A stretch of 64,000 bases of DNA, taken from contig CAMDDJ010000008.1 in NCBI GenBank assembly GCA_945891385.1, positions 1 to 64,000 of the forward strand, given 5' to 3'. Made by a program: the position numbers and the translations under genes. Source of the stretch: Candidatus Kuenenia stuttgartensis (lineage in GTDB: Bacteria; Planctomycetota; Planctomycetia; Pirellulales; UBA1268). The notes beneath the pieces were generated by a model that worked only from the letters and a program-made list of their open reading frames with translations, was not told the DNA's origin and made no database searches. Positions 11,178-61,614 of the stretch are shown in pieces; the first letter of the stretch is position 1; every line of letters starts with the position of its first letter.

Positions 11178-12545
11178 TCACCCGCGGCGCGGGGTCTTGC
11201 CGGCGGCGGTAGTGGCGATTCTCGTCACGATCTCGAGCACCCGCGGCACGCTGTGCGGTTCGAGCACTCCGCGGCAGTGAGCCAGCGCAGCGGCCTTGAG
11301 GTCGGCCCCGTCGCCCGCGGCGGCGGCGGCAGCCTCCGGGGTGAGTGTGATCTCGGCGGCGACGAGTTCGCCGGTCAGGCTGCTCGGCACGCCATACACC
11401 CGGGCCTCGGCCACGCCCGACACCTCACGGAGCACTTCCTCCACCCGCTTGGGAAACACCTTCGCCCCGCCGACGATGATCGCGTCGGTGCGGCGGCCGG
11501 CAAACACATAGCGATCGCCTTGGAGTTCCACGAGGTCGCCGGTGCCCACTTCGGCGGCGTCGCGGGAGGCCCTGACCAGCAGCTCGCCGTCGCGGCGGAC
11601 ATTCAGCGTCACGCCCCCGATGAGCGGCTTGCCGAGCCACTTGGCAGGAAAGCCCGGCTGGCCGTCGGCCACGCGAAACACCTCGCCGAGTTCGGTGGTG
11701 GCATACACCTGCGTGATGCCAGCCTTGGGAAAGGCCTCATGGGCCCGGGTGAGGAGGTCGGCGTCGGCCGCCTCACCGCCGAGCGTGATCCGCGAGAGCT
11801 TGTTGCCGGTGAGCACGGCCGGGTCGGCGGAGGTGAGCAGCCGCCGCAGGAGCGTGGGGGTGGCGGGGAGGATGGCCACAGCCTCATCCACGATGGCCTT
11901 GGACACCACATCCGGATCGCGGCTGGCGGGCACCACGAGCCGGCCGCCGGTGAGGATCGCCTGGGCCCACACCTGAATCCCGGCCCACCGCGTGGCGTCG
12001 TAGACGAGCAGCCAGGCGAGGTCGTGCCACTGGGCGGCGAGCCGGGCCGATGCGAGCACCGATTCCCACGAGTGCCGCACCAGCTTGGGCGGGCCAGCCG
12101 TGCCCGAGGTGGCCACGGTCACATGGGGCACTGCCGCCTCCATCCCGATCGGGCCGCGGGCTGCCGCGGCCACGGGCGGCAGCGTGAGCGAGTCGTCGAC
12201 CGTAACCCAGTCGTGGAGTTCGCCGAGCAAGTCACGGGAGTCGTCGGCGAGGAACGCCACGGGCGTGCCCTGTCGGCCGCAGGCTGCCGCGACCGCCACG
12301 AGCGCCTCGGGCCGCCGCACCCGGGCGATCACACCCCGCGGCTGGGCGGCGTTGAGCTGGTCTTCGAGGCCTGCGATCGCCTGAGCAAGTTCGCCGTAGG
12401 AGATTGTCCTGCGGGCGTCGCTGCCGGCTTCGGCCACGATGGCCGGCCGGTCTGGCGTGGCCGCGGCCACCTCTCGGATCACACAGGCGAGGCGTTCATC
12501 GGCGGGGGCATCGAGCGAGGCGGGCAGCGCTTCAGCGGAGGGCAT
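11178..12545 (-). CDS. AMP-forming acyl/aryl ligase (ANL superfamily)
   Basis: A 455-residue adenylate-forming enzyme. The ATP loop is TSGTAGPPKLVRH, the adenine motif is YATTELGE, the hinge motif is GRRTDAIIVGGAKVFP, and the C-terminal catalytic Lys sits in TAAGKTPR. All key motifs are present, so it is probably active. It is shorter than usual acyl-CoA synthetases because the N-terminal domain is compact. The start at 12545 is the first ATG upstream of the conserved region; longer readings overlap the ACP end. Gene order suggests that it loads a carboxylic acid onto the adjacent ACP. The acid is unknown. Confidence 0.85.
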   Translation of the reverse strand: MPSAEALPASLDAPADERLACVIREVAAATPDRPAIVAEAGSDARRTISYGELAQAIAGLEDQLNAAQPRGVIARVRRPEALVAVAAACGRQGTPVAFLADDSRDLLGELHDWVTVDDSLTLPPVAAAARGPIGMEAAVPHVTVATSGTAGPPKLVRHSWESVLASARLAAQWHDLAWLLVYDATRWAGIQVWAQAILTGGRLVVPASRDPDVVSKAIVDEAVAILPATPTLLRRLLTSADPAVLTGNKLSRITLGGEAADADLLTRAHEAFPKAGITQVYATTELGEVFRVADGQPGFPAKWLGKPLIGGVTLNVRRDGELLVRASRDAAEVGTGDLVELQGDRYVFAGRRTDAIIVGGAKVFPKRVEEVLREVSGVAEARVYGVPSSLTGELVAAEITLTPEAAAAAAGDGADLKAAALAHCRGVLEPHSVPRVLEIVTRIATTAAGKTPRRG

Positions 12546-12691
12546 GCTGGGATCCGTTGCGGGCGTCTCAACCACCGGCCGCTCCCCGTCGGGCAGCCCT
12601 CGATTGCGACCGCCCCATGATACGCCCGCGTGCCAAAAAAGCGCCGAAATTCGGCCGAGCCTCGGCCGCCGGCTCGGCGAAAGCCCCGGCC

Positions 12692-12949
12692 TCACGGCCC
12701 GGCGGCGTGGCGGTAGATCGCCACAAGGTCGCCCACGGTCCGCACGGTGCGGCCGCCGCCGGCGGTGCGAAAGGGATCCTGGCCGAGCGCCCGCTCGAGC
12801 AGCACGACGGTCTGGGCGAGGTCGAGGGAGTCGAGTCCGAGGTCAGCCGAGAGGAGCATCTGCTCCTCCACGCTCGTCACACCGCGGCCGGTATCCCGAA
12901 GCACGGTCTGGATCGCGCTGGCCACGGCGGCTTCGATGGTGTCAGTCAT
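12692..12949 (-). CDS. acyl carrier protein
   Basis: An 85-residue acidic four-helix carrier. The phosphopantetheine attachment serine is Ser41 in the motif L-G-L-D-S-L-D. The C-terminal half carries an unusual Gly/Arg-rich stretch (FRTAGGGRTVRTV). It is the first gene of the cassette, 146 bp before the ligase. It is unlikely to be the housekeeping AcpP, because no fab cluster surrounds it, and more likely serves the dedicated ligase and reductase next to it. Confidence 0.88.
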   Translation of the reverse strand: MTDTIEAAVASAIQTVLRDTGRGVTSVEEQMLLSADLGLDSLDLAQTVVLLERALGQDPFRTAGGGRTVRTVGDLVAIYRHAAGP

Positions 12950-51763: not shown

Positions 51764-53692
51764 TTACTTAGGAAGCAACTTCTTCTCCCTGACCACAGCG
51801 GGACCAGATTCGGGTCCTGCGTATTCAGGAAGCAACTCTTTGAGCTTGATCCGCACAGCGTCGGGAGACTCGTCGAGCACTGAGTCTAACTCCTCGTGGA
51901 CGAAATCAATCGCGGCGGAGTCGATCGGACGGTGCCGGGCCGAAAACACCTTGGGGTGCCCGGTGGGAAGCCGCTCTTCGTCGTGGAAGTAAAGCTCCTC
52001 GAAAAGCTTTTCACCCGGCCGAAGGCCCGTGAACACGATCTCGATGTCGTCTTGCTCCAGCCCGGAAAGGGCGATGAGATCACGGGCAAGATCGATGATT
52101 TTGACGCTCTCACCCATATCAAGCACGAAAACTTCCCCGCCATTTCCCATCGAAGCAGCCTGAAGCACGAGTTGGGAGGCTTCCGGGATCGTCATAAAGA
52201 AACGTTCGATTCCTGGGTGGGTGACCGTGATCGGCCCCCCACGGCGGATCTGCTCTTGGAAAATCGGCACCACGCTGCCGTTGCTCGCTAAGACGTTGCC
52301 GAACCGCACGACGATGAACTTTGTCTGAGACTCGTGCGAGAGCGCCTGCACAAACCGCTCCGCCAAGAGCTTGGAGCACCCCATCACGCTCGTGGGATTC
52401 ACTGCCTTGTCGGTAGAGATACTCACGAACTCCTTGACGCTGTATTTGTCCGCCAATCGCGCCAGGCCGCGAGTGCCAAATACGTTGTTTTTGATCGCCT
52501 CGGCGGGGTTCCACTCCATCATCGGCACATGCTTGTGGGCCGCGGCGTGGAAGATCACATCGGGAGCGTGAGCCGCCATGATCTGCTCCATGCGGCTCTC
52601 GTCGGTGATGTCGGCAATCAGTGGCAGAAAGGCCGGCGGCGGCTGAAGTCGGGAGAGCTCCTGCTCGATGAGAAAGAGGGAGTTTTCTGCCCGTTCGACC
52701 AGCAACAGTTTTTGCGGCGAGAAGCGGATGACCTGGCGGCAGATTTCCGAGCCGATCGAGCCGCCCGCCCCCGTCACCATCACCACTCGCCCGGTGATCA
52801 GTTCGCGAATCGCAGAGTCATCAAGCTGCACCGGATCCCGCCGCAACAGGTCTTTGATCTCCACCGGCCGCAGTTGCACGTGCGAGAGATGCCTTTGGCC
52901 TGAGAGCAGCTCGTCGATTCCGGGGATGACCTTCACCTCGACGCCGGCATGAGTGCAGTCTTCGAGAAGTTTGCGAAACTGTTTTCCTGCGAGATAACCG
53001 GATTGCACGATGACTTCGTCGACCCCCCGTTTCACCACTTCCGCACTTGCGTCGGCAAAATCCCCGAGCACGGGGATTCCTGCGACTCGCGTGTGTACCA
53101 GCGAGGGATCGTCGTCGAGGAAACCGACCACGGTGTAGGGCTTCGAACTCGTGGCTTGGAGCCCGCGAGCAATCATCTCGCCAGCGTGGTCGGCTCCCAC
53201 AACGATTGCCGTTCTCGCTGATGAACGCGAGAACAACGGACGAAGTTCCTCGCGGATGCTGCGCCAAAGAGTGCGCAGCCCGCCCAGAATTAGGATCGTC
53301 GCGCCCCAGTCCAGCAGGAGAACGCTGCGGCGGACGCGTGGAAAGGCGGGAAACCAGCCGGTGGAGAGAAACAGGCCGTCGATCGCTCCAAAGAACAGGA
53401 GCGAGAGCGTCGACGCCCAGAGCAGGCTTGTAAGGTCGCCAAACGCAACACGACCCCACGACACGTGGCACAGGCCCATCGAATAGAAGATGCCGAGTTT
53501 CACAAGCACCACGCCAACGACCGTGGCGAGGTATTTCTCGAGCCATCCACCTTCAAATGAGAAGTCGCTCCGAGTAAAGAACGCCAGAAAATAGGCCGTA
53601 GCGAAGACCGCGGCATGAACCGCGATCAGCGAGATCGCCCGGCGACTGAAGCGATGAAGGCCCGTTCGGTTCTTCGGAAGGAGCAAATTCAT
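51764..53692 (-). CDS. PglF/WbpM/CapD-like UDP-HexNAc 4,6-dehydratase
   Basis: A 642-residue membrane-anchored enzyme. Four N-terminal helices (to ~140) are followed by a nucleoside-binding domain (TAIVVGADHAGEMIA) and the extended SDR dehydratase domain from ~300: VTGAGGSIGSEICRQ at ~306-320 and STDKAVNPTSVMGCSK, where Met replaces the usual catalytic Tyr, as in WbpM. The product would be a UDP-4-keto-6-deoxy-HexNAc. The ATG at 53692 is preceded by CAGGA at 8 bases. It is the first gene of the long leftward glycan run. Confidence 0.92.
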   Translation of the reverse strand: MNLLLPKNRTGLHRFSRRAISLIAVHAAVFATAYFLAFFTRSDFSFEGGWLEKYLATVVGVVLVKLGIFYSMGLCHVSWGRVAFGDLTSLLWASTLSLLFFGAIDGLFLSTGWFPAFPRVRRSVLLLDWGATILILGGLRTLWRSIREELRPLFSRSSARTAIVVGADHAGEMIARGLQATSSKPYTVVGFLDDDPSLVHTRVAGIPVLGDFADASAEVVKRGVDEVIVQSGYLAGKQFRKLLEDCTHAGVEVKVIPGIDELLSGQRHLSHVQLRPVEIKDLLRRDPVQLDDSAIRELITGRVVMVTGAGGSIGSEICRQVIRFSPQKLLLVERAENSLFLIEQELSRLQPPPAFLPLIADITDESRMEQIMAAHAPDVIFHAAAHKHVPMMEWNPAEAIKNNVFGTRGLARLADKYSVKEFVSISTDKAVNPTSVMGCSKLLAERFVQALSHESQTKFIVVRFGNVLASNGSVVPIFQEQIRRGGPITVTHPGIERFFMTIPEASQLVLQAASMGNGGEVFVLDMGESVKIIDLARDLIALSGLEQDDIEIVFTGLRPGEKLFEELYFHDEERLPTGHPKVFSARHRPIDSAAIDFVHEELDSVLDESPDAVRIKLKELLPEYAGPESGPAVVREKKLLPK

Positions 53693-54067
53693 GCGGGGCT
53701 TCCTGCAGGGAATCTCAATGACCGCGACGCCTTGCCGGGATTCGCGCACAAACGTGGCAACTTGGGCCGCATGCGAAAGACGGGGGTAATTTTAGGATCT
53801 CTTGCAAGGGTTTGATCACAAGCCCTCACGACGGCACCGCGCAGACTCCGTTCCCTTCGGTGGCAGGCCTACGAACCCCCGACCGCCGCGAGACTGAGAC
53901 GTCCCTAAGTTTACCCCTGCTGATATCCAAAATCTCGCGGCCGCGCAAAGCCTCGCCAGTTTCTCCCCGCCGCCCCGCTTCCCGACCGGAAATCCGGGCA
54001 AAGTCTGCCGTCGGATTCTGCCGATGACACCGATCGCAGCGACTGTACCGGTTGCAAGGAGCAGGCC
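53693..54067. other. divergent promoter region between the dehydratase and the Wza-like exporter
   Basis: A 375-bp region between two divergent glycan genes. No gene was recognised. It must hold promoters in both directions, but no convincing consensus pair was found. It contains a 20-bp palindrome. AAGGAG six bases before the exporter ATG is a clear ribosome-binding site. Confidence 0.55.
53807..53826. promoter_or_regulatory. 20-bp palindrome, possible operator
   Basis: AGGGTTTGATCACAAGCCCT is an inverted repeat with one mismatched position pair, centred on TGATCA. It lies 115 bp upstream of the dehydratase start and ~240 bp upstream of the exporter, where a dimeric regulator of both directions could bind. 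No cognate regulator is visible nearby. Confidence 0.35.
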
Positions 54068-55432
54068 ATGACCAGCGGAAACCGTGTGAAAACCATGAGC
54101 AAGACGACCACCTCCCCCCGACTAGGCGGCGGCCGCCAGATCGCCCTGCTCCTCGCCCTGGCCGGTTCGATCGCGGCTGCAACCGGCTGTCAGACATTTG
54201 GCAGGCCACAAAACAACACCAAGACCCAGGTGATGCTCGACGCCCAGTGCCCTCCGACCGACCCGGCCAACATGCCGGCCAAGGAACTCGCCAAGGTTAC
54301 CCTGCCCCCCTATGTGATCGAGCCGCCAGACATTCTCCTGGTTGACGCATTGCGGGTGGTGCCCAAGCCGCCCTTCCGGATCCAGTCGTTTGACGTGCTC
54401 CAGGTGATCGTGGAGGGCACGCTCCTCGAGCAGCCGATCAACGGGCTCTATGTGGTGGAGCCGGGCGGCATGCTCGACCTTGGGCCTTCCTATGGGAAGG
54501 TGATGGTGGGTGGGCAGTCGCTCGAAGAGGCGCAAGACTCCGTCTTTCGGCACTTGAAGCGGACGCTTCGCGATCCGCAGGTGTCGCTCACGCTTGCCCA
54601 GGCCGCCGGCCAGCAGCAGATTGCCGGAGAGCATCTTGTGGCCCCTGACGGCACGATCAATCTGGGTACCTATGGCAGCGTGTACGTAACCGGCCTCACG
54701 CTCGAACAAGCCAAGAAAGCGATCGAGGATCACCTCGGAAAGTTTCTCGATGCCCCGCTCGTGAGCGTGGACGTGTTTTCCTACAACTCCAAGGTCTACT
54801 ATGTGATCACGGAGGGAGCAGGCTTCGGCGACAATGTCGTCCGCTTCCCTGTGACCGGCAACGAGACCGTGCTCGACGCGATCTCGCAGATCAACGGGCT
54901 CTCCCGGCTTTCGAGCAAAGACATCTGGATTGCCCGGCCGGCGCCGTCAGGCGTGGGCTGCGATCAGATCCTGCCTGTCGATATCGAAGCCATCATGAAG
55001 GGTGCGTCTACGGCCACGAACTACCAGGTGCTCCCTGGCGACCGGGTGTTTATCGCTCAGGATCAGTGGATCGCCTTCGATAGCATCATTGGCAAGATCA
55101 CCGCTCCCTGGGAACGAGTGTTTGGCTTTGCCCTGCTCGGATCCAGTACGATCCAGCAGTTCAACCGGTTCCCCTACGGCTTCAACCCGAATTTCGGAGG
55201 CGTCTGCTGGGTTGCTCGTGAGGTCTACGGGCCCGAGAATCCTCAGTGGCTGCTCTTCCGGGCCTGGTTGCTCACCGATGCTCCCATCTGGTTGCGAGAT
55301 GCGTACACCGCCCACGGTGAAGGCTTCGCCGCCTGGATCAGCGACAAGCCCGTCGTGAAGACGATCGTGAAGGCGGCGATGGACCAGGTGATTGGCCGGT
55401 ATGAGGCAGAAATGCCCCGGATTGGTCGGTGA
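54068..55432 (+). CDS. Wza-like polysaccharide export lipoprotein
   Basis: A 454-residue outer-membrane export protein. The signal ends at a lipobox (I-A-A-A-T-G-C, Cys41). A poly-export domain is duplicated: VIEPPDILLVDALRVV at ~92-107 and FRIQSFDVLQVIVEG at ~114-128. SLBB-like beta-grasp segments follow (VFSYNSKVYYVITEGAGFG). The C-terminal ~90 residues are hydrophobic-aromatic, possibly the outer membrane helix. No Wzc-type tyrosine kinase or chain-length protein is seen in the window. The ATG has AAGGAG at 6-base spacing. Confidence 0.9.
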   Translation: MTSGNRVKTMSKTTTSPRLGGGRQIALLLALAGSIAAATGCQTFGRPQNNTKTQVMLDAQCPPTDPANMPAKELAKVTLPPYVIEPPDILLVDALRVVPKPPFRIQSFDVLQVIVEGTLLEQPINGLYVVEPGGMLDLGPSYGKVMVGGQSLEEAQDSVFRHLKRTLRDPQVSLTLAQAAGQQQIAGEHLVAPDGTINLGTYGSVYVTGLTLEQAKKAIEDHLGKFLDAPLVSVDVFSYNSKVYYVITEGAGFGDNVVRFPVTGNETVLDAISQINGLSRLSSKDIWIARPAPSGVGCDQILPVDIEAIMKGASTATNYQVLPGDRVFIAQDQWIAFDSIIGKITAPWERVFGFALLGSSTIQQFNRFPYGFNPNFGGVCWVAREVYGPENPQWLLFRAWLLTDAPIWLRDAYTAHGEGFAAWISDKPVVKTIVKAAMDQVIGRYEAEMPRIGR

Positions 55433-55446
55433 AAAAAACTCGGCAA

Positions 55447-55474
55447 GCCACGGTTCGCCATCGCGGACCGTGGC
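55447..55474 (+). terminator. hairpin after the exporter gene
   Basis: Arms GCCACGGT/ACCGTGGC (55447-55454 and 55467-55474) with an inner CGC/GCG pair. It begins 14 bases after the exporter stop. No T-run follows, so it may be a stability element rather than an intrinsic terminator. Confidence 0.4.
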
Positions 55475-55494
55475 GACTGACTTGATGCCAGCGG

Positions 55495-55500
55495 TATACT
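55495..55500 (+). promoter_or_regulatory. possible -10 element of the small secreted protein gene
   Basis: TATACT, 38 bases before the ATG at 55533. No clear -35 at the expected distance. The mRNA would then start near 55507, just ahead of the strong AAAGGAGG ribosome-binding site that ends at 55520. Confidence 0.35.
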
Positions 55501-55532
55501 TCTGAATGGTTTAAAGGAGGTTGAGTTCAGCA

Positions 55533-55928
55533 ATGAAGCGAAATCCACAACGCTGTTTGGCGGCTGTCGCAGTCTTGATGGGCGGGCTCGTAGGGGCCAA
55601 CCAGTGCTCGGCCCAGAGGCCAAGCAACCGGCCATTTGAAAATACCTACCGCCGGCCCAACGTGAGTCCTTACATGCAACTCCAGCAGCAGGGGCTAAAT
55701 CCCCTCCAAAACCAGAATATCTACCAGACCATGGTTCAGCCGCAGGTTCAACAGCAGCAGCAGCAGATTGAGCAACTGCAGCAGCGCAGGCAGCTACAGC
55801 AGGTGCAATCACAAGTTGCTAACATGAATTCACCCCGCTCACGTCAACTCGACGAAAGCATCCGCCCGACGGGCCACGCCTCAACCTACATGAACTATTC
55901 CCACTTCTATCCGATGCCACGGCGTTGA
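55533..55928 (+). CDS. small secreted Gln-rich protein of unknown function
   Basis: A 131-residue protein with a signal peptide (CLAAVAVLMGGLVGANQCSA, cleavage before QRPSN). The mature part is ~105 residues: a Pro/Asn/Gln-rich segment (QQQGLNPLQNQNIYQ), then a coiled-coil-like Gln run (VQQQQQQIEQLQQRRQLQQV) and a Tyr-rich end (YMNYSHFYPMPRR). A near-perfect AGGAGG precedes the ATG by 12 bases, implying strong translation. It follows the exporter by 100 bp. No family recognised; a structural or adhesive envelope role is possible. Confidence 0.7.
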   Translation: MKRNPQRCLAAVAVLMGGLVGANQCSAQRPSNRPFENTYRRPNVSPYMQLQQQGLNPLQNQNIYQTMVQPQVQQQQQQIEQLQQRRQLQQVQSQVANMNSPRSRQLDESIRPTGHASTYMNYSHFYPMPRR

Positions 55929-55961
55929 TGCGGTGCGGGCTGACGAACGAGGCAGCCAGCC

Positions 55962-56636
<675 letters not shown>

Positions 56637-56782
56637 AAACGAGATTTTAGCGGGGGCAGCGAGGCGATGGCGATGAATCGGCGGGCCGGGGAGATGAGCG
56701 GCCTCTTGGGCGGGGGCGGGAAGCCCTATGGCTGGGGCGGCGAGGCATGCGCTCAAAGCCCACCAGCCACCCCGAAAAACAC

Positions 56783-56810
56783 TTGACCAAAAACTATACG
56801 CCTGTACACT
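56783..56810 (+). promoter_or_regulatory. sigma70-like promoter
   Basis: TTGACC at 56783-56788 and TACACT at 56805-56810 with 16-bp spacing. The start of the downstream gene is 21 bases after the -10 element. GGAGG lies 7 bases before its ATG. Confidence 0.5.
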
Positions 56811-56831
56811 CTTCGGATTGGAGGCACCCCC

Positions 56832-57593
56832 ATGACCATGCACAACTCCGTTCGCGCCCAACTGGCCGAAGTCTTCGAAGCGAAACAGGCTGATGTTCTC
56901 GCCAACGTCGTCACCGAGGCCTACGACAAGCTCGTCACGAAGAGCGACCTGTACGAGCTCCGCGTCGTTGTGCGGGAAATTGCCGACAACCAGAAGATTA
57001 CAGACGAGCGGCTCGCCAAACTCGCCGAAAACACCGACCGGCGGTTTGTCCAAACCGATGCCCGAATCGACCGCATGGCCGATTCCATCGATCGGCTCGC
57101 CTGCAGGATGGATCAGCTCGCCGTCAGCCAGGAGAAGCTCACCAACCAGGTTCGAAAATTGGCCATCGGCCAGGACGAACTGGTGGGCCCTGTCTACGAA
57201 GGCAAGGTGGCCACCCACCTGTATGCCTACGTTGGCGACCTCGTGGATCACTGCGTGGTGCTCGACTCCAGGGGCAAGGCCAAGTTCTTTGCCAACCTTG
57301 ACCCAAATGGCACGCTCGAGCCGAGCGAGCTCTCTGACCTCCGCCGGGCCGACATCTTCGCCACAGGCCGCATCGACGGAGAGGCGGTGGTGCTTCTTGT
57401 CGACGTGTCGCGGACCAGCGACCAGTACGACATCGCCCGCACCTCACGGCGGGCAGCCATCCTCGCCAAGACGGGCACACGGGCTATCCCAGTTGTGGCC
57501 TGCCTCCGCATCGACTCCGCGACGCAGGCCCTGGCCCATGAAAAGGGCTTGTGGGTGATCCGCAAGGGTCGACTCCTCACCGAGGCTGGCTGA
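56832..57593 (+). CDS. coiled-coil protein with C-terminal PD-(D/E)XK-like domain
   Basis: A 253-residue protein. Residues ~35-125 are a heptad coiled coil (ITDERLAKLAENTDRRF; IDRMADSIDRLACRMDQL). Residues ~130-245 look like a restriction-endonuclease-like fold in the DUF3782 style: EGKVATHLYAYVGD, RRADIFATGRIDGEAVVLLV and DVSRTSDQYDIARTSR. The usual D...(D/E)-x-K triad reads Asp...D-V-S, so the Lys is missing and activity is doubtful. It stands alone with its own promoter and is convergent with the NusG paralogue gene 26 bp away. Function unknown. Confidence 0.65.
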   Translation: MTMHNSVRAQLAEVFEAKQADVLANVVTEAYDKLVTKSDLYELRVVVREIADNQKITDERLAKLAENTDRRFVQTDARIDRMADSIDRLACRMDQLAVSQEKLTNQVRKLAIGQDELVGPVYEGKVATHLYAYVGDLVDHCVVLDSRGKAKFFANLDPNGTLEPSELSDLRRADIFATGRIDGEAVVLLVDVSRTSDQYDIARTSRRAAILAKTGTRAIPVVACLRIDSATQALAHEKGLWVIRKGRLLTEAG

Positions 57594-57619
57594 GCCCGAG
57601 CTTGAGCGGAAGGCCCGGC

Positions 57620-58180
57620 TCAGATCCGCAACAGGTCGACGTCTTCAAGCTCGACCGACGCCCCCTGGTTCAGGAATTTCACGGCCACGATCAGCCGCTG
57701 CTCGCCCTTGCGGGTGATTACGGTGCCTTCGATCCCCTTCATCGGTCCTGAACAGACCCGCACCAGATGGCCAGCCTCCAGCCGGGCCTCGGGGGTGAGG
57801 GGCATGTCGATCGCGATCAGCTTCTGGATCCGCCGCAGGTCGGCCACAAGCTCCGGTCCGTCGACGACCGGCAGGCAGCGGGAAATCGTGTTGGTGGCCA
57901 AGGCCGCACGCCGCTGCTCGTCGTCGACGAGCCCGAACACGTAGTTGGAAAAGAGCGGCACGAAACTCGACCGCACCCGGCCCCCCGGCGACCGCAGCCG
58001 CCGGCGAACCGTTGGGCAATAGAAGGGAATCCCAGCCGCCTCCAGCTTCCGCGAGAGGTCCTTTTCCCGCTTCGACATCGTGTAGAAGGCAAACCACGAG
58101 GCATGCTCGGCCCCGTGCACGGCTGGGTCGTCGAGCAGACCGGCGGGGAAAAGGGTGATTTCAGCAGGGAGGAGCGGCAT
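57620..58180 (-). CDS. NusG paralogue (RfaH/UpxY/LoaP-type transcription elongation factor)
   Basis: A 186-residue protein with an NGN domain (ASWFAFYTMSKREKDLSRKL at ~27-46; SFVPLFSNYVFGLV at ~71-84) and a C-terminal KOW domain (CSGPMKGIEGTVITRKGEQ at ~142-160). Housekeeping NusG is normally near secE and rplK, which are absent. Specialised paralogues of this type promote antitermination in long capsule and polysaccharide operons. The long glycan operon ~4 kb away on the same strand is the natural candidate target. The leader upstream has a 16-bp hairpin. Confidence 0.88.
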   Translation of the reverse strand: MPLLPAEITLFPAGLLDDPAVHGAEHASWFAFYTMSKREKDLSRKLEAAGIPFYCPTVRRRLRSPGGRVRSSFVPLFSNYVFGLVDDEQRRAALATNTISRCLPVVDGPELVADLRRIQKLIAIDMPLTPEARLEAGHLVRVCSGPMKGIEGTVITRKGEQRLIVAVKFLNQGASVELEDVDLLRI

Positions 58181-58508
58181 GATGGTCGTCGATCAATTCT
58201 TGCGAATCGGAAATGCCCTGCGGCGGTGGATACCCGCCTCGATTATACCCGCGAGCAGTCGGCGCGGGCCCGGTGCACGGTGCACGGTGGCCCACTTGTA
58301 ATGCGACCAGCACGGGGGGCTCCAAAGCCCGCCGCATGACAACGGTCCGGTCACTCGGACCTGGCCGGCCAATCGCCCGTTATCCCAACCCGAGGCACAG
58401 CATTCGCCGTCGGCCAGGGGAATACCCTGGCCGACGGCGAGCCAGTTCGACACGTGCCCTGGACACTGGTCCGCAGATCCCGGTGCCGGGCCCGCCCCTA
58501 GCAAAGCC
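58181..58508. other. intergenic leader between EF-G and the NusG paralogue
   Basis: A 328-bp region with no gene seen. It holds a strong hairpin (58404-58440) and a short direct repeat, with GTGCACG repeated in tandem near 58272-58285. It should carry the NusG paralogue promoter; no clear consensus was recognised. Confidence 0.55.
58404..58440 (-). terminator. 16-bp perfect hairpin between EF-G and the NusG paralogue
   Basis: The arms TCGCCGTCGGCCAGGG and CCCTGGCCGACGGCGA pair without mismatch around the loop GAATA. It lies 69 bases past the EF-G stop and ~220 bases before the NusG paralogue start. There is no T-run on either side. It could be a terminator, an RNA-stability stem or an attenuator of the downstream gene. 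The structure is certain; the role is inferred. Confidence 0.6.
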
Positions 58509-60599
58509 TTACTTCGCTGCCGCGAGATCCGCCTTCTTCCGCTCCTCGACGATCTCCTTCTGGATGTTCCCCGGCGTGGGCCGATACTTCGAGAACTCCA
58601 TCGTGAAGACTCCCTGACCCTGCGTCATGCTCCGCAGGTCGGTCGAGTAGCCGAAGGTTTCTGCGAGCGGCACCTCCGCGATGATCGTGGAGGTGTTGCC
58701 TACCGTCTCCGTGGAGATGATCAGGCCCCGCCGCTTGTTGAGCTCGCCCGTCACCGGGCCCTGGAAGTCGGCCGGAACCTCCACCTCCATCTTCATGATC
58801 GGCTCGAGCAGCACGGGCTTCGTATTGAGGAAGGCCTCACGGAAGCCGGCCCGGGCACAGATCTGGAAGGCCATGTCGGAGGAGTCGACGTCGTGGTAGG
58901 AGCCGTCTTCGAGCGTGGCCTTCACGCCCACGATCGGGAAGCCGGCGATCGGCCCCTTGTCGAGCACCGCTCGGAAGCCCTTCTCAACCGACGGGATGTA
59001 TTCCCGGGGCACGCGACCACCCACCACCTTGTCTTCGAAGATGAAGTTCTCGGTGGCATCGTCGGGCAGCGGCTCGAGATGGCCGATGATGTGGCCATAC
59101 TGACCCGAACCACCCGACTGCTTCTTGTGCTTGTAGTCGTAGGGCGTGCCCTTGGTGGGCGCTTCGCGATAGCTCACCTTCGGAGCCCCCACCTCCACGT
59201 CGACCTTGAACTCGCGGCGGATCCGCTCGACGTAGATGTCGAGATGCAATTCGCCCATGCCGGCGATCACCGTCTCGCCCGTCTCGTCGTCGGTGGCCAC
59301 GCGGAAGGTGGGATCCTCGCGGGTGAACCGCTGCAGGGCCTTGCCCAGCTTGTCGAGGCCTTCACGCTTCTGCGGCGTGATCGCCATCTTGATCACCGGC
59401 TCCGGCACGAACATGTTTTCCAGCGAGCAATACTTCGACTCGGAGGCATACGTGTCGCCGGAGGCAGCGTCGACGCCCATCACGGCCACGATGTCGCCGG
59501 CGCCGGCCGAATCGATCTCCTCACGCTTGTCGGCGTGCATCCGCACGATCCGGCTAAACCGCTGCTTCTGGCTCGTCCGCTGGTTGATGTAGGTCTCGCC
59601 CTTGGCCATCGTGCCCTGGTAGATCCGCATGAACGTGAGCTGACCGTAGGGATCGTCGACGATCTTGAAGGCCATGCCCACAAACGGCTTGGCCGGGTCG
59701 GCCGCGAGGCTGAACGTCTCTTCGGGGTTGTCCCACTTTTTGGCGACCACCTTCCGCTCGAGCGGATTGGGGAGGTAACGCACGACCGCGTCCAGGAGGG
59801 GCTGCACGCCCTTGTTCTTGTAGGCGCTGCCACAGAAGACGGGCGTGATGCTCTGCGAATGCACCGCCGCCTTCACGACAGCGTGAATCTCGTCTTCGGT
59901 CGGGACCTCCTCCGAGAGGAGCTTCTCCATCAGCGAGTCGGAGTACATCGCGAGATCTTCGAGCATCGCGTGGCGGGCCTCGTCGGCCGCGGCCTTGAGG
60001 TCGCCCGGGATCTCTTCCTCGCGAACCGTCTCGCCGTTGTCGCCGTCGAAGTAGAGCGCCTTCATCTTGACCAGGTCGATCACGCCCTGGAGCTTGTCTT
60101 CCTTGCCGATCGGAATCTGCATCCGGATCGCATGGCAGCCGAGCTTGTCCTTGAGCTGGCCCACCACGCGGTCGAAATTGGCCCCGGTGCGGTCCATCTT
60201 GTTGACGAACGCCAGCCGCGGCACCTTGTACCGCTGCATCTGCCGGTCGACCGTCATCGACTGGCTCTGCACGCCACCCACGCTGCAGAGCACCAGAATC
60301 GCACCGTCGAGCACGCGGAGGCTCCGCTCCACCTCCACGGTGAAGTCGACGTGGCCGGGGGTGTCGATCAGGTTGATGTCGCAATCACCCCACTGCACGC
60401 TCGTGGCCGCCGAGGTGATCGTGATCCCGCGCTCACGCTCGAGATCCATGTAGTCCATGGTCGCGCCGTCCCCGTCGCCCTTGACCTCTTGAATCCGGTG
60501 GATGCGGCCCGCGTAATAGAGGATGCGCTCGGAGAGGGTGGTCTTGCCGGAGTCGATGTGGGCCGAAATGCCCATGTTGCGAAGCTTCGTGAGATCCAT
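58509..60599 (-). CDS. fusA: elongation factor G
   Basis: A 696-residue translational GTPase that drives ribosomal translocation. The G motifs are all present: [27 protein letters not shown] and GSAYKNKG. Domains II-V follow, with the family's GMGELHLDI in domain III and the C-terminal [14 protein letters not shown]. The GTPase loop reads HIDSGKTT where the common form is HIDAGKTT. The ATG at 60599 opens the conserved M-D-L-T-K-L; longer readings are not supported. It is not in a str operon (no rpsG/rpsL/tuf next to it), so it may be one of several EF-G copies. Confidence 0.95.
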
Positions 60600-60840
60600 T
60601 GAATACACGTTGACCTGGGAGGAAACGATCGGGAGCCCCGCCGGGGCGCAGCTGCCCGGTGGGAGGACGACTGTCCGGCAGCCCTGAAGAAATATACTCG
60701 CGCCCGGGGGAACGGCATAGGCGGGGGGTTGGCCGAAAAACCGGCGAAATCGGCCCGGCCGCGGTTTCAGGGGCCCCGGCTTGGGCAGGCACGCGTTCTC
60801 GGGCACAATCCTCGGTCTCGTCTTCTCCCGGGCTGCTTCG

Positions 60841-61614
60841 ATGACCGCCGAACCCACGCCTGCAACATCCCAGCCCGTCCCGCCCACCGCGGCGGCACCG
60901 GAGATTGATTACGGACCGGCCGAGCCCTGGCTGACCTGCGTGTTCCCGTTCTTCGCCTTCCTCTTCATCGGCTCGGTGGAACCGACCGCCACCGACGGCG
61001 GCTCCCTCGGCCTGCTCGGCATTCAGTACGAGCACTATCCCGTCATCTACGCGATCCGCCTGGCGATCGTGCTGGCCCTCGTGGCCCGCGTGTCGCCCAA
61101 TCTCTACCGCTGGGTGGGCCGCCCCACCTGGTGGCCGCCGCTCGTGGGGCTGGCCCTCGTCGTGCCCTGGGTGGGGCTCACCATGCTCCAGCGGTCGTTC
61201 GGCTGGGCCGAGTGGGGCGGCACCCGCGCCGGCTACAACCCCTTCGCCCCGGAACACCTCGGCGACTCCACCTGGGCCTGGGTCTTTCTGGCCGTGCGGT
61301 TCGTGGGGCTCGTGATCGTGGTGCCGATCGTCGAGGAGCTGTTCGTCCGCGGCATGCTGATGCGGTATGTGATCCGAGAAAACTTCTGGCTCATCCCGTT
61401 CGCCACGCTCTCGGCCGCCTCGCTGCTCGGCTGCACGCTCTACGCCGTGCTCAGCCACCCTGGCGAGGCGATCGCCGCCGTCGGCTGGTTCGGCGTGGTA
61501 AGCCTGATCGCGGCCACGACGAAAAAGCCGATCGACTGCATCCTGTGCCACGCGGCCACGAACCTCGCCCTCGGGCTCTACGTGCTCGCCACCGGTGAAT
61601 GGTGGCTGATGTGA
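60841..61614 (+). CDS. CPBP-family (CAAX-like) intramembrane protease
   Basis: A 257-residue membrane protein with about seven helices. The Abi/CPBP motifs are present: [14 protein letters not shown] with Glu-Glu-x3-Arg, and [10 protein letters not shown] with the His near the end. Such enzymes are glutamic intramembrane endopeptidases; in bacteria the substrate is usually unknown. The start at 60841 is the ATG nearest the first helix. It diverges from EF-G by 241 bp and overlaps the GluQ-RS start by 16 bp, so those two are co-expressed. Confidence 0.8.

Follow-up and report, generated by a model that had tools for sequence, protein, structure and literature searches.

RfaH of Escherichia coli is a specialised NusG that acts in trans on polysaccharide operons, at the ops element in their leaders. 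UpxY is the product of the first gene of the capsule operons that it regulates in Bacteroides, and LoaP is described as a specialised NusG that acts at the leaders of antibiotic operons in the Bacillota (PMC12691694). A study from 2020 stated that it was unknown how NusG paralogues are recruited when their genes lie within the operons that they regulate (PMC7593976); later work reported an RNA hairpin in the case of LoaP (PMC12691694). Short upstream elements are also on record. The JUMPstart RNA motif (RF01707) lies in the 5′ UTRs of polysaccharide genes and is described from the γ-Proteobacteria with a stem-loop (PMC2864571). The 'Rhodopirellula-1' motif is listed in the same source for Proteobacteria and Planctomycetes. 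A PEP-CTERM upstream motif is described from Proteobacteria, together with a sigma-54 site (PMC1569441).

The present analysis concerns nusGp (57620-58180, minus strand), which encodes a specialised NusG paralogue of 186 aa in the window, i.e. the whole 64-kb stretch of planctomycete DNA that was analysed. The data are best read as an RfaH/ops-like system, a reading to which a probability of about 0.68 is assigned. The nusGp protein would be loaded onto RNA polymerase at a leader element (approximately G[TC]CACCCANGRGNACGGAGTNNGCGCNGA) of long glycan operons and would then keep the polymerase going; in the window it would do so in trans. The features shared with RfaH/ops are a specialised NusG, an element in the leaders of polysaccharide operons, a predicted action in trans and the nearest solved structure by sequence. 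The element associated with nusGp differs from ops in its letters.

It is apparent that nusGp encodes a divergent NusG-family protein. Its NGN domain (residues approximately 28-123) was matched by Pfam PF02357 at 32.3 bits (cut-off 22.2). The KOW-type end (approximately 139-185) had no match in Pfam and was modelled as β strands, with pLDDT values of approximately 45-64. The AlphaFold model as a whole had a mean pLDDT of 74, with a confident NGN domain and a C-terminal domain of β type at low confidence, where RfaH has an autoinhibited helical hairpin. Foldseek matches of the model were mainly to NusG, RfaH and Spt5, and RfaH was the top solved structure for the nusGp profile (E value 7e–9). 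That profile was built from an alignment of 28 sequences, those of the window and 27 relatives; one relative with nusGp in two frames (L026, genome G015) and one partial sequence (L034) were excluded. Among NCBIfam models, UpxY ranked first at 79.7 bits, followed by two RfaH models (41.5 and 34), LoaP (24.1) and NusG (19.2). All of these scores are below the models' own cut-offs (100 for UpxY, 144.5 for the RfaH equivalog scoring 41.5, 125 for LoaP and 135.7 for the housekeeping NusG equivalog), so that on score nusGp falls outside the UpxY subfamily and the RfaH equivalog.

The low equivalog score and the absence of a secE-rplK context indicate that nusGp is not the housekeeping NusG. The source assembly (G000; 3.77 Mb, 150 contigs, 93.9% complete) contains only two NusG-domain matches, nusGp and a gene on contig C4 (83.1 bits) that sits in a secE-nusG-rplK-rplA ORF order, as read by eye. 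As far as this assembly shows, nusGp is therefore a true paralogue. The original prediction of a NusG paralogue outside the secE-rpl context is thus confirmed, and the circumstance that it had named as fatal, that this might be the only NusG in the genome, is ruled out.

The glycan genes that the same prediction had placed nearby, in a run of about 26 kb, are indeed present (27068-53749, minus strand). Pfam families, almost exclusively polysaccharide-related, were matched by 19 of the 21 ORFs scanned in this run, and the run is the presumed target of nusGp. Its first gene encodes a CapD-type nucleotide-sugar dehydratase (51764-53749, minus strand; PF02719, 393 bits), the true start of which is likely the ATG at 53692, judging by eye from the starts in relatives. 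Divergent from the operon is a wza-like polysaccharide export gene (54068-55432, plus strand; PF02563, 78 bits), which adjoins nusGp in relatives.

A search of 60 near genomes detected relatives of nusGp in 33. Besides the window's genome, 29 members of its family carry the gene, and in 27 of these nusGp opens a CapD-DegT-GT4-sugar transferase run and diverges from the wza-like gene (the exceptions are G022 and G169, and some contigs end inside the run). Thus, the relatives' nusGp heads a capsule-type operon, as UpxY does. The window departs from this arrangement: its nusGp lies approximately 4 kb from the operon leader, beyond the wza-like gene, between an ORF at 56832-57593 (plus strand) and fusA. 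This ORF, of 253 aa, had no match in Pfam or NCBIfam and none in the loci of 20 relatives; a joint arrival with nusGp is possible.

Phylogenetic trees were compared for the two proteins, with G015 excluded. The window's wza-like protein clusters with those of G003 and G006 (support 99/92 and 95/93), and the window's nusGp falls outside the family clade of 27 rows (support 96/86). In an AU test, from which G022, G047 and G052 were also excluded, a tree uniting the nusGp proteins of the window, G003 and G006 was not rejected (p 0.06), nor was that for a wider set (p 0.12). These values are compatible both with relocation accompanied by fast change and with replacement by a divergent copy, and either event may account for the displaced nusGp.

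The leader of the window's glycan operon (53750-54067, minus strand) proved informative in this regard. It aligns with the nusGp leaders of relatives at 76% identity over 235 columns (G006) and 69% over 253 columns (G003); the leader now upstream of the window's nusGp gave short, weak matches only. By this alignment, the window's operon retains the ancestral leader, orthologous to the relatives' nusGp leaders, together with its element. Since nusGp lies 4 kb away beside fusA, recruitment in the window would have to occur in trans.

The element, CACCGAAGGGAACGGAGTCTGCGC, occupies 53836-53864 on the minus strand (core 53839-53862) with no mismatch to the pattern derived for the order. Within it, a 12-mer, GGAGTCTGCGCG (53838-53849, minus strand), was read from the sequence; it resembles the E. 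coli ops element. An initial consensus reached 18-24 of 25 in 14 leaders from a set of 29 relatives that extends beyond the family. Shuffled copies of the leaders (200 shuffles) never scored above 18, so that 13 of these 29 stand clear (L012 ties), among them four genomes of other families. In the window, the CapD leader scored 23 of 25 and the nusGp leader 15. A sharp form of the element, CACCCANGRGAACGGAGTNNGCGC, is present in 16 of 27 family leaders of operon-heading nusGp genes; a recognisable element is absent from the other 11, which counts against the recruitment reading. The 18-nt core has a single exact match in the window's assembly, where seven further sites have 3 mismatches, as compared with 3 for a reversed control. 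At ≤2 mismatches, the search gave no further copy of the element there.

In the window, a TAAACT box, a candidate –10 sequence, precedes the element by 51 nt (53908-53913, minus strand), and the spacing is 51 nt in G006 and 52 nt in G003. Across the family, 10 of the 16 element-bearing leaders have TAAACT at 51-84 nt ahead of the element. In 4 of the 11 element-less leaders, it lies 27-40 nt before the start codon, two of these having a second box further up. The element is thus placed as if in a spacer between promoter and gene, and the likely RNA polymerase signal, from the sequence, is 53838-53864, outside the 58181-58508 region upstream of nusGp. In two relatives the operonic nusGp is decaying. 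One (G012), which is counted in favour of the recruitment reading, has a remnant resembling the start of nusGp and keeps the wza-like and CapD genes and the TAAACT box, without the element. The other (G015, loci L026/L207) has nusGp split across two frames and keeps the element.

The distribution of the element was determined for the order as a whole. At ≤2 mismatches, CACCNANGRGAACGGAGTNNGCGC was found in 127 of 296 genomes, and a reversed control in 9 of 296 (counted from rows). In a sample of the phylum searched at ≤1 mismatch, the element was found in 4 of 294 genomes (control, one match). They comprise the window's genome, a further member of the order and two genomes from another family of the same class. 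The nusGp profile matched 163 of the 296 genomes of the order. Element and nusGp occur together in 118 genomes, the element alone in 9, nusGp alone in 45 and neither in 124 (Fisher p 4e–33). The association persists on stratification by family (CMH p 1.6e–25, OR 27), which covers 278 of the 296 genomes, the other 18 being from small families outside the strata. Within one family (f17), nusGp was matched in 24 of 25 genomes with the element versus 3 of 41 without it. Stratified by genus, the window's own family gave p 0.003 and OR 5.7 (CMH), and in the window's genus the proportions were 9 of 9 versus 2 of 11. It is apparent that the element tracks the presence of nusGp across the order. These tests, stratified by family or genus, retain some relatedness, and a full-length wza-like gene is also absent from 8 of 9 members of the genus that lack nusGp, which weakens the argument from co-occurrence; the ninth is G012. 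The 45 of 163 nusGp genomes that have no element at ≤2 mismatches and the 9 of 127 element genomes that have no nusGp match both count against the recruitment reading.

Genes following the element were surveyed at 80 loci, of which 76 were counted, with up to two co-directional ORFs each; three loci of genome G265 (L156-L158) and L190, which has no element at ≤2 mismatches, were left out of these and of the motif counts. Among the 139 ORFs obtained, all of them from element loci, the leading families were AAA_31 (16), Polysacc_synt_2 (15), Exosortase_EpsH (12), Wzz (11), DegT (8) and Glycos_transf_1 (8); at least 7 encode NusG. The polysaccharide and exosortase families among them suggest that the element marks exopolysaccharide and exosortase operons in the sample. 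In the sampled loci, the element usually lies away from nusGp, and some genomes with a single nusGp carry several elements (three in G275), which fits action in trans.

Conservation over 77 elements spans positions –2 to +26. Within the 24-position core, conservation was to some extent built in by the search pattern; the positions free of such selection are –2 (G, 87%), 4 (C, 79%), 19 (C, 81%), 25 (G, 73%) and 26 (A, 77%). No dyad was found in the consensus. The consensus for RNA polymerase pausing is G–11 G–10 ... Y–1 G+1, which the window's GGAGTCTGCGCG resembles. Order-wide, the pause consensus is matched in part only: C follows GCGC in 55% of the elements, and a consensus pause is therefore not claimed.

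These features bear on a different explanation of the association, in which a different exopolysaccharide regulator uses the element, either as an operator in double-stranded DNA or as an alternative-sigma promoter, and nusGp is simply carried along with the same loci. An order-wide –10 box upstream of the element was rejected as a candidate, as no enrichment of TATAAT was found upstream of 115 elements, and this is as the operator or sigma-factor model would have it. GGAAC in the element also resembles the –35 boxes of ECF sigma factors. Against this, the element is a single undivided block with neither a dyad nor a second conserved box downstream, its distance to the next gene varies from <10 nt to >200 nt, which would be odd for a promoter, and the association with nusGp is strong within families. 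An operator or alternative promoter is accordingly considered unlikely.

The level at which the element would be read was considered as well, as nusGp might recognise it single-stranded in the nascent transcript, comparable to LoaP, which is described as requiring a hairpin in the leader RNA (PMC12691694). The same genomic data would fit recognition in RNA, but no conserved RNA fold was found over the 77 elements, in which no base pair rose above expectation to a degree worth naming, and Rfam gave no match, to JUMPstart or any other family, at 9 element loci. In this the element also differs from JUMPstart, with which it shares its small size and its presumed location in the 5′ UTRs of polysaccharide genes, and from LoaP. 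A conserved RNA structure was thus discarded as a candidate, and reading at the RNA level is regarded as improbable, more so than the operator model.

In the preferred reading, that of an RfaH/ops-like system, transcription would start near the TAAACT box and the polymerase would then reach the element. By analogy with RfaH, whose mechanism serves as the model from loading onward (described in PMC7593976 and PMC7819879), nusGp would load on the exposed strand or on a paused complex, would then compete with NusG, and would help the polymerase through the 26-kb glycan run. Transcription of the element, binding of nusGp to it and antitermination are all inferred. The original prediction had assigned nusGp a likely role in antitermination of the glycan operon; the role in the operon is supported by the synteny in 27 of 29 relatives, the common leader element and the order-wide co-occurrence, and the antitermination would follow from the analogy.

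A candidate recruitment element can be named, one that occurs across a planctomycete order and tracks nusGp. On the preferred reading, the window provides a natural case of a change from cis to trans, and a loading site for nusGp is predicted. Both the element and the lineage are, on the best reading, new for a recruitment system of the RfaH/ops type. Literature searches found no paper that joins planctomycetes, NusG and RfaH, or Rhodopirellula and NusG, or that gives the motif in any of three spellings, subscription papers being mostly outside their scope. Papers on planctomycetes, NusG and antitermination, judged by their titles, included none on the nusGp-element system.

A different kind of control had been proposed at the outset, by which a perfect 16-bp hairpin in the nusGp leader would act as an attenuator of nusGp synthesis. 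The hairpin itself is real. An inverted-repeat search found fully complementary arms at 58404-58419 and 58425-58440, with a 5-nt loop (58404-58440, minus strand). Among perfect stems with loops of 3-10, it has the greatest length in the window, as compared with 12 bp for the longest in ten first-order Markov copies, and it exceeds chance. It is also on the same strand as nusGp, between that gene and fusA, and transcriptional read-through out of fusA is possible. Its membership of the nusGp leader is not supported. The fusA gene, encoding EF-G (58509-60887, minus strand; TIGR00484, 990 bits), is given as called, and its true start probably lies further inside the ORF; the hairpin lies 68 nt downstream of its stop codon (58509). 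The sole exact TATAAT (58242-58247, minus strand; 0.006 expected from composition), a candidate –10 sequence of nusGp, is situated approximately 157 nt downstream of the hairpin and so separates it from nusGp; a two-hexamer scan found no promoter.

Comparisons with relatives point in the same direction. In 33 relatives, the 328 nt preceding nusGp contain perfect stems of at most 11 bp (one relative) or 8 bp (the other 32), so that the hairpin does not accompany nusGp there. The 3′ ends of fusA were compared in six relatives that all have nusGp at another place. Four of these have a stem of 10-14 pairs, G-U pairs included, ≤320 nt after fusA, and the other two have stems of 8-9. On these comparisons, the hairpin more likely belongs to the 3′ end of fusA than to the leader of nusGp, and its control of nusGp synthesis is very improbable, the least credible of the alternatives considered. 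An intrinsic terminator was rejected as an identity for the hairpin, which has no T-run and is not listed by the terminator scan, and a repeat element was rejected because the only match in the genome is to itself. An Rfam search of 53500-59000 gave two sub-threshold chance matches only, one of them (mir-2320) on the hairpin.

Two further observations were made outside the leader region. In several relatives, a gene for an AMP-binding enzyme follows the sugar transferase gene by 0.2-0.5 kb. In the window, approximately 36 kb, mostly glycan genes, separate the sugar transferase gene from the AMP-binding-enzyme gene at 11178-12695 (compare 27068-48661).

The second observation concerns G265, in which a relaxed element pattern had 60 matches at ≤1 mismatch (control, 0). 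Seven of its contigs (C30, C48, C70, C75, C118, C138 and C142; loci L224-L228, L230 and L231) contain integron-like cassette arrays. On these, 34 of 38 elements lie 55-59 nt upstream of the left arm of an attC-like site, and an element is present at 34 of 94 attC-like arms. For cassettes with the element, the arm-to-arm distance is 422-430 bp in 20 of 29 cases, about 424 bp. The 22 cassette copies aligned have a median identity of 0.84 and no common ORF, and the repeat consensus folds as an imperfect hairpin. As the whole repeat is similar among copies, conservation of the element in this genome is not independent evidence. Integron cassettes that are promoter-active and lack an ORF have reportedly been described already; a NusG-type element inside such cassettes would be new. 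It is conceivable, if doubtful, that the element is a portable antitermination signal that entered these cassettes, whose dozens of copies each combine the element with a promoter-like stretch and an attC-like site, and that one nusGp carries the polymerase across attC hairpins into the next cassettes. Exopolysaccharide operons and integron arrays would in that case depend on one and the same specialised NusG. G265 encodes an integron integrase (427.8 bits), and the window's genome encodes one on contig C1 (229079-230023; TIGR02249, 424 bits), outside the window.
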